Of a DNA stretch of 64,000 nt, positions 17,071-19,881 are shown piece after piece. A model generated the notes under the pieces. The model made no database searches and was not told the DNA's origin. It was given only the letters and a program-made list of their open reading frames with translations. The DNA comes from Pseudomonas frederiksbergensis. Lineage in GTDB: Bacteria; Pseudomonadota; Gammaproteobacteria; Pseudomonadales; Pseudomonadaceae. The position numbers and the translations under genes are program-made. Numbering within the stretch: position 1 is the stretch's first letter; each line of letters starts with the position of its first letter. The stretch spans positions 3,960,501 through 4,024,500 of the forward strand of contig NZ_FNTF01000002.1 in the NCBI RefSeq assembly GCF_900105495.1, in the 5' to 3' direction.

Positions 17071-17994
17071 ATGATCAAGAGCTTTCAACTGATCCACGGC
17101 GCCCTGCACAAAGTCGAACGGCTGGACGCCGAAGTGATGCTCTTCAGCAACCCCGACGCCGCCGAGCGGGACTTGCTGCACAGCCATTTCAAGCTCGATG
17201 AACACGCCCTGGCCTCGGCCCTGGACCCCGACGAGGTGTCACGCATCGAGTTTCACCCCGACAACCTGTTCCTGATCTGGAAACGCCCGGAAAACTATTC
17301 CGGTGCCGGCAGCCTGGCTTTTGAAGTGTCGTCCTGCGGTTTGCTGTTTTCCGAGCACCGTTTGCTGGTGATCGCCACCGACGACTCGCCGCTCAGCGGC
17401 CTCGGCCTGCGCCAACCTCTGAACACGCCGCTGGATGTGTTGCTCGACCTGTTGTTCAACAACATCCATCACTACTTGGGCCACCTGAAGGTGATCAAAC
17501 TGGTTGCCCGGGAGTTGCAGCAGAAATTCAACGCGTCGATGCAGAACCAGCACCTGATCCAGATGTTCAACCTCAGCGAAAGCCTGATCTATTACATCAA
17601 CGCGATTCACAGCAACGGCGCCGTCCTGACCCGGTTGCGCAATCACGCCGCCAAGGAACATTTCAGCGCCGAAGCCATTGGCCTGATCGACGACCTGATC
17701 ATCGAAAACAACCAGTGCTACAAGCAGGCGGAAATCTACTCCACAGTGTTCTCCGGGCTGATCGACGCCCGGGGCAACCTGATGAACAACAGCATGAACA
17801 ACCTGCTGCGCAAACTGACGTTGATCAATGTGGTGTTTCTGCCGCTGAACCTGATTGCAAGTATCGGCGGCATGTCCGAGTTCAGCATGATGACGGCGGG
17901 CGTGCCATGGTGGGTTTCGTATCCGCTGTTTCTGAGCGCGATGATAGTGGGGGCTGGAATGATGGTGCTGGGGCTCAGACGGTTGGCGAAGTGA
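17071..17994 (+). CDS. CorA/ZntB-family divalent cation transporter with GMS motif
   Basis: 307-residue membrane protein of the CorA superfamily: N-terminal cytosolic funnel (residues 1-240) and two C-terminal helices (about 248-268 and 282-302). The pore loop that normally reads G-M-N is here G267-M268-S269 (IASIGGMSEFSM), between helix 1 (LINVVFLPLNLIASI) and helix 2 (YPLFLSAMIVGAGMMVLGL). Loss of the Asn should change ion selectivity; some pseudomonad paralogues share this. It starts 7 bp after the ATP-grasp gene and probably shares its transcript. Its 3' end overlaps the convergent gene by 20 bp. Confidence 0.82.
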   Translation: MIKSFQLIHGALHKVERLDAEVMLFSNPDAAERDLLHSHFKLDEHALASALDPDEVSRIEFHPDNLFLIWKRPENYSGAGSLAFEVSSCGLLFSEHRLLVIATDDSPLSGLGLRQPLNTPLDVLLDLLFNNIHHYLGHLKVIKLVARELQQKFNASMQNQHLIQMFNLSESLIYYINAIHSNGAVLTRLRNHAAKEHFSAEAIGLIDDLIIENNQCYKQAEIYSTVFSGLIDARGNLMNNSMNNLLRKLTLINVVFLPLNLIASIGGMSEFSMMTAGVPWWVSYPLFLSAMIVGAGMMVLGLRRLAK

Positions 17995-18307
17995 CGGCCG
18001 TTCTCCGATCCTGCAGGCCACGGACCACGAGGTATACCAGCGGCCCGATGGAGACGAAAACAGCGGTGATCAAAAGGTAGGGAACCACCGACCACCCCGA
18101 CCATCCGCGCTTGCGCGCATCCGAGTACATCCAGATGCCCGCGAGCGTCGCCAGCAGGTACAAATCAATCACCACCTGCGCCGTGTCGGGGCGCGACATC
18201 AGGCCGATGCCGAAATCGATCAATGACTGTTCGGCTTGCAGCATCACCGAAACGGTGTAGCCGGCGAACGCGATCAAGGCAATGAGGGGCAGGGCGACAG
18301 ACTTCAT
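17975..18307 (-). CDS. Small membrane protein, DUF2834-like
   Basis: 110-residue protein with three hydrophobic segments (residues 3-22, 45-62 and 72-95). The stretch DLYLLATLAGIWMYSDARKR followed by PYLLITAVFVSIGPLVYLVVR resembles DUF2834 proteins of unknown function. AAGGAAGGAAAC before the ATG is a good ribosome site. The gene is divergent from the ilvA attenuator region and overlaps the end of the CorA-like gene by 20 bp. Confidence 0.7.
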   Translation of the reverse strand: MKSVALPLIALIAFAGYTVSVMLQAEQSLIDFGIGLMSRPDTAQVVIDLYLLATLAGIWMYSDARKRGWSGWSVVPYLLITAVFVSIGPLVYLVVRGLQDRRTAVTSPTV

Positions 18308-18369: not shown

Positions 18370-18398
18370 TTGACTTGCCATCAACGCCCGGCTAATTT
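18370..18398 (+). promoter_or_regulatory. Predicted sigma-70 promoter for the ilvA leader
   Basis: TTGACT (18370-18375) and TAATTT (18393-18398) are separated by exactly 17 bp. The expected transcription start, six to seven bases beyond the -10, falls at about 18404-18405, which is the A of the leader-peptide ATG. Confidence 0.65.
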
Positions 18399-18404
18399 CC
18401 GGGC

Positions 18405-18470
18405 ATGACTTCCACTGTATTGCGCTGCCAGCCAAGCATTATTACCGCCATTCCTTATTTGGCGGGCTAG
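18405..18470 (+). CDS. ilvA leader peptide (attenuation)
   Basis: A 21-codon frame, MTSTVLRCQPSIITAIPYLA plus Gly, followed by TAG. It contains adjacent Ile codons 12-13 (18438-18443), a third Ile at codon 16, three Thr, and Val-Leu, the amino acids of the branched-chain pathway that ilvA starts. The end of the frame overlaps hairpin segments 1 (18445-18450) and 2 (18460-18466). No Shine-Dalgarno is present (CCGGGC precedes the ATG), and the predicted transcript begins at the ATG, so translation is probably leaderless. Too short for routine gene calling; supported by its fit with the downstream attenuator. Confidence 0.78.
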   Translation: MTSTVLRCQPSIITAIPYLAG

Positions 18471-18512
18471 CTCACGACTGCAGCACCCAACCCGCCCTAG
18501 AGGCGGGTTTTT
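18445..18512 (+). promoter_or_regulatory. Transcription attenuator of ilvA
   Basis: Four pairing segments are visible: 1 = CCGCCA (18445-18450), 2 = TGGCGGG (18460-18466), 3 = CCCGCC (18491-18496), 4 = GGCGGG (18502-18507). Segments 1:2 and 3:4 form separate hairpins, and 3:4 (extended to AACCCGCC/GGCGGGTT) plus a T run is an intrinsic terminator. Segment 2 is also fully complementary to 3. A ribosome stalled at Ile codons 12-13 would cover segment 1, free segment 2 to pair with 3, and prevent termination when isoleucyl-tRNA is scarce. Confidence 0.82.
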
Positions 18513-18555
18513 ACTTTCTGCCTCCTGGGTTTTCGATCAACGTCAGGAGACGACC

Positions 18556-19569
18556 ATGAGCAGCAGCACAGCCCAGCAAACCTTGCTTGAGCATTACGTG
18601 AAAAAGATCCTCGCCGCGCCCGTGTATGAGCTCGCGGTGCGTACGCCGCTGCAACCGGCGCCAGCGTTGTCCGAGGCGCTCGGCAATCAGATCCTGCTCA
18701 AGCGCGAAGACCTGCAACCGACCTTTTCCTTCAAGATCCGCGGTGCCTACAACAAACTGGTGCAGTTGAGCGATGAGCAAAAGGCATGCGGCGTGATCAC
18801 CGCTTCGGCGGGCAATCATGCCCAGGGCGTAGCGCTGGCAGCACGTGAATTGGGGATCGCCGCGACCATTGTGATGCCGCGCACGACACCGGAATTGAAG
18901 GTGCTCGGTGTTCGCAGTCGGGGGGCTGACGCCGTGCTGCACGGCGAGAGTTTTCCGTTTGCCCTGGACTATGCGCTGAACCTGGCACGGCAAACCGGTC
19001 GCACCTTTGTCTCGCCTTTCGACGACCCGGATGTGATCGCCGGTCAGGGCACCGTCGCCATGGAAATCCTGCGTCAGCATCAAGGTCCGCTGGATGCAAT
19101 CTTTGTCCCGGTGGGCGGAGGTGGCTTGATCGCGGGCATTGCAGCGTATGTCAAATACTTGCGACCTGAAGTCCGCATCATCGGTGTCGAGTCGGAGCAT
19201 TCCGCGTGTTTATCCGCGGCATTACAGGCTGGCGAGCGAGTTGTCCTGCCGAGCGTAGGCACTTTCGCCGACGGTGTCGCCGTCGCCCAGATCGGTGCTT
19301 ATGGTTTCGAGGTCTGCCAGTTTTGCGTCGATGAAGTGTTGACGGTCAGCAACGACGAACTCTGCACCGCCATCAAGAATATCTACGACGATACCCGCTC
19401 GATCACCGAACCTTCCGGCGCCTTGGCCGTGGCCGGCATCAAGAAATACGTAGCGCAGACCGGCGCCCGTGGTCAGACGCTGGTCGCGATCGACTCGGGC
19501 GCCAATATCAATTTCGACAGTTTGCGTCATGTGGCCGAGCGCGCCGCATTGAGCGACGTCCCGGCGTGA
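18556..19569 (+). CDS. ilvA: Threonine ammonia-lyase, short form without ACT domains
   Basis: PLP enzyme that deaminates threonine to 2-oxobutanoate, the first step of isoleucine synthesis. The fold-type II catalytic domain is complete: Lys60 in SFKIRGAYNK binds PLP, SAGNHAQG binds substrate, VGGGGLIAG binds phosphate, and DSGANINFD closes the domain. At 337 residues it stops where the two C-terminal ACT-like regulatory domains of full-length IlvA (about 500 residues) would begin, so allosteric isoleucine inhibition should be weak or absent. The upstream attenuator suggests control by transcription instead. A CAGGAG ribosome site precedes ATG 18556. Confidence 0.93.
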   Translation: MSSSTAQQTLLEHYVKKILAAPVYELAVRTPLQPAPALSEALGNQILLKREDLQPTFSFKIRGAYNKLVQLSDEQKACGVITASAGNHAQGVALAARELGIAATIVMPRTTPELKVLGVRSRGADAVLHGESFPFALDYALNLARQTGRTFVSPFDDPDVIAGQGTVAMEILRQHQGPLDAIFVPVGGGGLIAGIAAYVKYLRPEVRIIGVESEHSACLSAALQAGERVVLPSVGTFADGVAVAQIGAYGFEVCQFCVDEVLTVSNDELCTAIKNIYDDTRSITEPSGALAVAGIKKYVAQTGARGQTLVAIDSGANINFDSLRHVAERAALSDVPA

Positions 19570-19575
19570 GCGGTG

Positions 19576-19881
19576 TCAGGCCAGCAGCGGGCGCAGGAAG
19601 GTCCGCTCATAGCTGACGATAAACTTCTTTTCGACCAGCGAAGCTACGAGCGCGGCGCTTTCGGCGTCGGTCATCGCGATATGCCGGTAGCTTTCGTAAT
19701 CTGCCAGCGAAGGAAAGCTGAACAGGCAGTAGGCGATATTGCTCGCGCCCTCGGAAGGCAGGAAGTACCCGTGGTGCGTACCACCCAAACGTTCGACGAT
19801 GCCGAGCCAGGCTTTGGCGTAGGCTTCGAACTCGCTGAGTTGATACGGATCGATCACATATTTGACGTGGCAGGTAATCAA
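19576..19881 (-). CDS. NIPSNAP family protein
   Basis: 101-residue ferredoxin-like alpha/beta barrel protein of the NIPSNAP group: MITCHVKYVIDPYQLSEFEA at the N-terminus, then GGTHHGYFLPSEGASNIAYC and SYERTFLRPL. The family forms dimers related to antibiotic-biosynthesis monooxygenases; a specific reaction is not known. It converges on ilvA with a 6-bp gap and lies 29 bp downstream of the ecotin gene on the same strand. Confidence 0.82.
   Translation of the reverse strand: MITCHVKYVIDPYQLSEFEAYAKAWLGIVERLGGTHHGYFLPSEGASNIAYCLFSFPSLADYESYRHIAMTDAESAALVASLVEKKFIVSYERTFLRPLLA

Follow-up and report, generated by a model that had tools for sequence, protein, structure and literature searches.

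Within a 64,000-nucleotide stretch of the Pseudomonas frederiksbergensis genome (contig NZ_FNTF01000002.1, positions 3,960,501 to 4,024,500; the window), the region upstream of ilvA very probably constitutes a ribosome-mediated transcription attenuator, which ties a threonine dehydratase without regulatory domain to the level of charged tRNA-Ile. The RNA of this element is catalogued in Rfam as P9 (RF00624), for which the best interpretation is that of a terminated leader transcript from an isoleucine (Ile) attenuator. Support at the sequence level comes from the leader reading frame, its Ile codons, the three pairings among four RNA segments (1:2, 2:3, and 3:4), the distance between promoter and leader ATG, the position of ilvA, and the missing regulatory domain. 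While the mechanism is classical, novelty lies in accounting for P9, in the predicted leaderless start, in the connection with regulatory-domain loss, and in the range of targets. The features of the locus are the following (window coordinates).

18370..18375, plus strand: predicted -35 box TTGACT, placed from the letters and from the position of TTGAC in relatives
18393..18398, plus strand: predicted -10 box TAATTT, after a 17-nt spacer, with 6 nt between its end and the leader ATG
18405..18470, plus strand: leader open reading frame (ORF) MTSTVLRCQPSIITAIPYLAG, 21 codons, ATG at 18405, stop codon TAG at 18468-18470, probably leaderless
18435..18511, plus strand: match to Rfam RF00624 (P9), 86.3 bits
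18438..18443, plus strand: tandem Ile control codons ATT ATT, with a third Ile codon at 18450-18452
18445..18450, plus strand: segment 1, CCGCCA, from letters and alignments
18460..18466, plus strand: segment 2, TGGCGGG, partner of segment 1 or segment 3
18489..18512, plus strand: intrinsic terminator, with segment 3 (18489-18496), loop CTAGA, segment 4 (18502-18509), and a T run
18522..18527, plus strand: segment 5, CTCCTG, complementary to the ilvA Shine-Dalgarno sequence; the pairing is not supported by alignment counts
18544..18549, plus strand: segment 6, CAGGAG, holding the Shine-Dalgarno sequence of ilvA
18556..19569, plus strand: threonine dehydratase of the ilvA type (337 aa), a catalytic domain that lacks the C-terminal regulatory domain

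All parts of the attenuator named by the original prediction, which had been made from the letters alone, are present base for base. These include the exact alternative pairing it had proposed: the core of segment 3 (CCCGCC, 18491-18496) is fully complementary to GGCGGG of segment 2. The terminator reads AACCCGCC-CTAGA-GGCGGGTT followed by the T run, and was also picked up by a terminator scan; its GAGGC (18500-18504) is complementary to GCCTC (18520-18524), which overlaps segment 5. The leader contains three Ile, one Val, and two Leu codons, and is devoid of Val or Leu runs. With the generally known size of the ribosome footprint, the placement of the control codons in the window suits a stalled ribosome that covers segment 1 and leaves segment 2 free. 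The RNA from 18405 to 18515 folds with a z-score of -2.44, and a single copy of the core pattern exists in the window, while none of 100 dinucleotide shuffles contains it; this count speaks for rarity only, because the pattern was derived from the sequence itself.

We propose that RNA polymerase would start at the leader ATG or directly adjacent to it. When Ile-tRNA is plentiful, the translating ribosome would reach the TAG codon and cover segment 2, so that the 3:4 hairpin terminates transcription and an RNA of about 100 nt, P9, is released. When Ile-tRNA is scarce, the ribosome would stall on ATT ATT over segment 1, the 2:3 hairpin would form, and polymerase would continue into ilvA. A further hairpin between segments 5 and 6 on the ilvA Shine-Dalgarno sequence may restrict translation of leaky read-through transcripts.

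Positions 1-74 of the P9 model (RF00624) match with 86.3 bits against a gathering threshold of 43 (E = 3.6e-17), and P9 is the sole Rfam family to reach this threshold in a scan of the whole window, in which no known aptamer or T-box family did so. P9 is described in its Rfam entry as lying before a threonine dehydratase gene, and its transcript has reportedly been detected on Northern blots in P. aeruginosa. The original prediction had called such an attenuator before a lone, short ilvA "not commonly described". This does not hold for the RNA, which is catalogued, and stands for its explanation: in the literature searched (titles and abstract openings, including few subscription papers), we found no account of P9 or of a Pseudomonas ilvA leader as an attenuator, and the words 'ilvA' and 'threonine' are absent from the main texts of PMC2965389 and PMC3460626. 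The lone, short ilvA, probably the layout of the window, represents one of several layouts among relatives, in which the element precedes short or long ilvA genes, a SnoaL-like gene followed by ilvA, a SnoaL-like gene alone, kinase genes, or a second isoleucyl-tRNA synthetase (IleRS) gene.

For comparison, we collected P9 matches at E values up to 1e-3 from 89 of 198 genomes of the family (83 above the Rfam cut-off) and fetched 90 of the 93 matches, the other three scoring below 29 bits. A total of 164 script-matched elements, 80 of them obtained through a DNA pattern scan, were dereplicated to 63 P9 rows. The pattern scan returned at least 120 stretches; among the 80 matches listed, 76 are Pseudomonas by title, accompanied by Halopseudomonas, Microbulbifer, Achromobacter, and a Sulfuriferula metagenome-assembled genome. 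Loci from Achromobacter (L127), Microbulbifer (L121), and Sulfuriferula (L157) also exceed the P9 gathering score. Alignment A1 comprises 62 of the 63 rows (L030 was left out) and gave model R1; alignment A2, from which model R2 was built, combines 30 of the 63 P9 rows with 30 of 56 loci found by R1, hand-picked for variety and a readable leader. Promoter and codon counts refer to 61 of the P9 rows (L112 and L164 lie too close to the locus end) and to 26 of 28 far rows hand-picked from the 56 R1 loci (L242 and L246 have no usable ATG). The survey of R1 loci covers about L261-L266 in part, and assignments to gamma-, beta-, or alpha-proteobacteria are certain for pattern-scan records and inferred for loci found by the models.

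Conservation follows the leader peptide. An in-frame Ile leader is present in 85 of the 90 fetched matches (84 by the script pattern, plus L053, which uses the Ile codon ATA), and the five matches without the motif all score below 30 bits. These 85 elements are located directly before ilvA in 53 cases, before a SnoaL-like gene and then ilvA in 14, and before a SnoaL-like gene alone in 18; in one of the combined layouts (L025), the SnoaL-like gene is a remnant, and one of the 18 SnoaL-like genes without ilvA (L100) is truncated. The 61 dereplicated leaders contain 216 Ile codons in the leader frame compared to 31 and 40 in the other two frames, as expected if the Ile codons asked for by the original prediction are kept in frame, and position 5 of the leader motif is Ile in 59 of 61 rows.

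The three pairings are likewise maintained, with coordinated changes among relatives. In the 60 hand-picked rows of A2, which span many families, 96.4% of cells are paired for 1:2, 99.2% (of 360 cells) for 2:3, and 97.1% for 3:4, percentages that are biased upward because the alignment and the models favour the assumed structure; sliding the 2:3 pairing out of register reduces it to 35-65%. At one stem position, segments 1-2-3-4 read G-C-G-C in 28 rows, A-T-G-C in 20, and A-T-A-T in six: the A-T-G-C rows retain 2:3 through a U-G pair, and an A in segment 3 is found only where segments 2 and 4 both carry T. Six rows deviate (A-T-G-G in two, C-T-G-C in two, G-T-G-C in one, and A-A-G-C in one), of which the A-T-G-G rows (L083 and L098) reflect a one-column alignment slip. 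Rows from one lineage are not independent in these counts. In seven of 62 rows, the change of GCC to ACC in segment 1, which converts an Ala to a Thr codon, is accompanied by C to T in segment 2.

The promoter is conserved at a fixed distance from the leader ATG. In P9 rows, TTGAC begins at -35 to -38 in 50 of 61 cases and TAnnnT at -12 to -14 in 54 of 61; in far rows, TTGAC is located at -34 to -37 in 21 of 26. The figure for the R2 loci (53 of 79) is not independent evidence, because TTGAC helped to choose the ATG. In the P9 rows, this spacing predicts that transcription begins with the A of the leader ATG or immediately beside it. A start at this site leaves no space for a Shine-Dalgarno sequence of the leader, and the leader ORF is therefore probably leaderless. 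There is a precedent in Sinorhizobium meliloti, whose trp attenuator RNA is described to start with the trpL ATG (PMC7298713, excerpt).

Several observations weigh against an Ile attenuator of this design. TTGAC is missing at -35 to -38 in 11 of 61 P9 rows, and TAnnnT is present at -12 to -14 in only five of 26 far rows. Only two Ile codons are found in five of 61 leaders and Met occupies the second position in six of 61, and among the 26 far leaders, 14 have Ile and 10 have Pro at position 5. One genus (g551) mostly carries R-I-F-T-A, a single Ile where others have two, and we have rejected the statement that tandem Ile codons occur in every leader. Moreover, the conservation of the tandem is partly built in, because the models, the pattern scan, and the anchor all select the core motif. 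Finally, equilibrium folding with segment 1 covered still keeps the terminator and the 5:6 hairpin, with means of 1.5 pairs for 2:3 and 6.2 pairs for 3:4 over 85 rows, and 0.1 and 7.6 in the window. Given that equilibrium folding fails to show the switch, it would have to be kinetic, and such failure is common for kinetic devices.

The g551 leaders are mostly R-I-F-T-A at L276, L280, L281, and most of L383-L400, while L382, L384, and L386 of the same genus carry I-I-T-A-I before the same family of AAA_33 kinases, possibly representing a change of the sensed residue. At L100 (genome G044), leader and hairpins are intact, and the family match of the SnoaL-like gene breaks off some 100 codons into it, with a transposase-like ORF starting right behind the shortened gene. 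At L016 (genome G137), the terminator is separated from the ilvA start by a palindromic repeat of roughly 100 nt, which may interrupt the 5:6 hairpin. Terminator and gene are also more than 100 nt apart at L132, L155, L162, L163, L174, and L180. L277 has a fluoride riboswitch match (922-985) on the attenuator strand, some 500 nt further upstream.

The enzyme encoded downstream offers a protein-based line of evidence. As stated by the original prediction, ORF 18556-19569 encodes a threonine dehydratase: its product matches positions 2-320 of the 499 positions of TIGR01124, PALP is the only Pfam domain, and threonine dehydratases are the top matches among solved structures. It thus corresponds to the catalytic domain of a biosynthetic-type threonine ammonia-lyase, a structural gene of the Ile pathway. 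A mechanical ORF list places the nearest gene-like ORFs on either side of leader and ilvA on the minus strand (17975-18307 and 19576-19881), and because both flanking ORFs run in that direction, ilvA probably stands alone as a single-gene unit, given our choice among overlapping ORFs. The same genome encodes an IlvA of normal length elsewhere (L001, with an open frame of 507 and, in the comparison of IlvA copies, about 513 aa), and a second copy of the element was not found in this genome by P9 or R1.

IlvA proteins ending before 400 aa, with a complete catalytic part, account for 28 of 64 copies linked to the element and for none of 21 unlinked copies, the latter hand-picked from a listing that shows open-frame lengths and including L001. 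Of the 28, two lie outside the family, among them L245, a short protein on an extremely long branch that may be a dehydratase of another type; omitting it leaves 27 of 63. Among the matches listed, only 11 open frames fall below 450 codons, all of them linked and from the genus of the window. Another family contributes 18 linked ilvA genes. Five of them stop after 355-371 aa, 11 are still open where the fetched piece ends (501 aa), and two are cut by a contig end. At least three changes between short and long IlvA are required on the tree, which indicates, as judged from these sequences, that the regulatory domain of attenuator-linked IlvA is a part lost more than once. The short enzyme would be deaf to Ile, and a protein sensor of Ile may have become dispensable once the RNA senses the same amino acid. 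This suggests that feedback control has moved from the enzyme to the RNA. Separately, ilvA2 of P. aeruginosa PA14 is listed among the putative targets of the sRNA SrbA (PMC5542712, excerpt), so that a second RNA layer on ilvA2 has already been proposed.

The element is not confined to Pseudomonas ilvA. R1 matches at E values up to 1e-3 occur in 34 of 341 genomes of the order, 14 of 369 of the class, and 34 of 398 of the phylum, in overlapping draws and with many weak matches due to chance or to other attenuators. In four families, R2 matches at E values up to 1e-5 are present in 19 of 48, 25 of 130, 22 of 118, and 20 of 29 genomes, rates that do not apply to proteobacteria at large because these families were chosen for their R1 matches; matches in other families reach E = 7.6e-24. 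Downstream of 90 R2 loci, we find 29 P-loop kinases resembling FlaR or 'DNA topology modulation' proteins, 25 AAA_33 kinases, 18 ilvA genes, seven IleRS genes, four SnoaL/NTF2-like genes, one GNAT gene, one anthranilate synthase gene (L381), two genes without family, and three loci at which no protein was called. Family assignments rest on a single representative of each cluster, or two in the case of SnoaL-like proteins, and the FlaR-like representative scores 81.9 bits, below the model cut-off of 215. R1 matches of about 27-32 bits are, by eye, a mixture, from which those due to chance and to other attenuators are excluded from our claims; L283 (36 bits) and L290 (31 bits) carry thrA-type leaders, and L248 and L250 precede leuA/cimA-like genes. 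Amid the weak matches, L249, L251, L253, and L286 appear to be real elements before kinase genes.

The element precedes a second IleRS gene at seven loci of one genus, g44 (L313, L314, L315, L317, L318, L321, and L331), with leaders of the form ..RIIIIIPRSGG... In seven of seven genomes, the element-linked gene spans about 1060 codons and exists beside a housekeeping copy of 941-948 codons, while two further genomes of this genus, in which a kinase gene follows the element, have one full-length IleRS each. The first 501 residues of the linked protein best match cytoplasmic IleRS chains (637 bits, as compared to 565 for 6ldk, 441 for 1ile, and 244 for 1ffy), and it is therefore probably of the second, eukaryote-like IleRS type. 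The second type of IleRS can tolerate mupirocin. An IleRS target links the signal to Ile-tRNA without recourse to ilvA.

The remaining target families were seen at the following loci. FlaR-like small P-loop kinases (MKKVAVFGKPGSGKSTLS..) are encoded behind the element at L235-L244, L312, L359-L363, and others, and at many of these loci the leader stop codon TAG is located in the loop of hairpin 1:2. SnoaL/DUF4440-like genes follow it at L083, L128, L152, L157, L257, and L288, and one of their products matches the solved yybH structure (2gxf) at 3e-40. GNAT acetyltransferase-like genes lie behind attenuator-like leaders with fewer Ile codons at L271, L291, and L356 (by Pfam for L356), which may be related systems with another specificity.

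The switch may extend beyond the terminator. The 5:6 hairpin may cover the ilvA Shine-Dalgarno sequence: in 86 rows, duplex energies are lower with own than with swapped partners (-14.15 vs -12.26 kcal/mol; 0 of 5000 permutations), whereas on the alignment 75.3% of 5:6 cells are paired, which is not above shuffles (199 of 500). One could further envision a relay, in which formation of 2:3 would free segment 4 to take segment 5 and thereby open the Shine-Dalgarno sequence, co-switching transcription and translation. Own partners are also favoured for 4:5 (-11.42 vs -10.88 kcal/mol; 0 of 5000 permutations, 86 rows), long 4:5 matches exist at L152, L127, and L277, 91.3% of 4:5 cells are paired (reached by 10 of 500 shuffles), and removal of segment 3 opens the Shine-Dalgarno sequence of the window from 0.26 to 0.69 and that of 20 of 85 rows by more than 0.1, with two rows closing. 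However, rows of the named, g5, and g12 groups show no own-partner advantage, covariation at 4:5 scores no better than in shuffles (254 of 500), the alignment does not favour 5:6 either, and the mean opening is small (0.19 to 0.26). Because 4:5 is strong in few sequences and weak overall, we keep the relay only as an alternative and consider it rather unlikely.

The signal itself could also be a different one. Leaders of the ErmCL type sense drugs or nascent peptides, and the leader studied here might respond to a ribosome-targeting drug or to its own nascent peptide rather than to uncharged tRNA-Ile. Several target families (kinases, GNAT) are of a sort able to modify drugs, the single-Ile form R-I-F-T-A exists, and antibiotic-sensing upstream ORFs such as toiL are known (PMC12121999, excerpt). 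Yet, positions 1 and 2 retain Ile (in part owing to the anchor), as does position 5 in P9 rows, whereas T, A, I, R, S, or L occurs at positions 3 and 4 depending on the family; in addition, the level of Ile-tRNA explains both the ilvA and the extra IleRS targets. We consider this alternative improbable.

P9 might, on the other hand, act mainly in trans as a base-pairing sRNA, the terminator being the end of its own gene. It is filed as an sRNA gene in Rfam, and rnTrpL of S. meliloti is an attenuator RNA with trans functions and, like the RNA predicted here, a 5' end at the leader ATG (PMC7298713, excerpt). Conservation, however, tracks the reading frame, the Ile codons, and the alternative pairing, and an sRNA would not need 2:3; the element also holds its position before ilvA, SnoaL-like, kinase, or IleRS genes. 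A mainly trans-acting P9 is thus very improbable, though P9 may have a trans role besides attenuation. That an ordinary terminator lies by chance beside an unrelated short ORF has next to no probability and is contradicted by the comparison: short ORFs and GC-rich hairpins are common (five terminator candidates in 2.3 kb vs 2.2 expected), but the E values for P9 (3.6e-17) and in other families (7.6e-24) and the coordinated pair changes argue otherwise, as do the nearest upstream plus-strand ORFs of at least 80 aa, whose ends at 17994 and 18080 leave some 290-375 nt to the -35 box.

An attenuator responding to charged tRNA-Ile provides the catalogued orphan sRNA P9 with a concrete, testable function. 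As a more tentative proposal, to which we give somewhat less than even chances, P9 could represent, in Pseudomonas, an ancient family of leaderless attenuators that sense Ile-tRNA charging in gamma-, beta-, and probably alpha-proteobacteria and whose targets together would form a response to Ile starvation or IleRS inhibition. If so, a feedback-deaf dehydratase would supply more Ile, a second IleRS would provide more, or inhibitor-tolerant, charging, and one should look for the functions of the FlaR-like, AAA_33, SnoaL-like, and GNAT proteins in the provision of Ile or in protection from IleRS inhibitors. The little-known protein families behind the element would thus gain a physiological signal, the shortage of charged tRNA-Ile, and a 4:5:6 relay may couple translation to this same signal.

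The enteric attenuators of ilvGMEDA, ilvBN, and thrABC have leaders rich in codons for the products of their pathways, with Val and Leu runs in addition to Ile in the ilv leaders, and follow the 1:2, 2:3, and 3:4 logic. The element in the window shares with them the control codons for a pathway product, this pairing logic, and a pathway gene downstream. In contrast to the enteric examples, its leader is essentially specific for Ile, it apparently serves one gene, there is no room for a Shine-Dalgarno sequence of the leader, and an extra hairpin may form on that of the structural gene. RF00624 describes the same RNA as the window element; filed as a Pseudomonas sRNA gene, it here corresponds to the 3' part of a leader-peptide attenuator that is present outside Pseudomonas as well. 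The ilvBNC attenuator of Corynebacterium glutamicum (PMC11857589) likewise combines a leader for branched-chain amino acids with competing hairpins, a likeness by description only, and belongs to a different operon and phylum. For trpL/rnTrpL of S. meliloti (PMC7298713, excerpt), the terminated transcript is a small RNA, as predicted for the window; there, the leader responds to Trp rather than Ile and a trans role has been described for rnTrpL. For the element before ilvA, the start at the ATG is a prediction.

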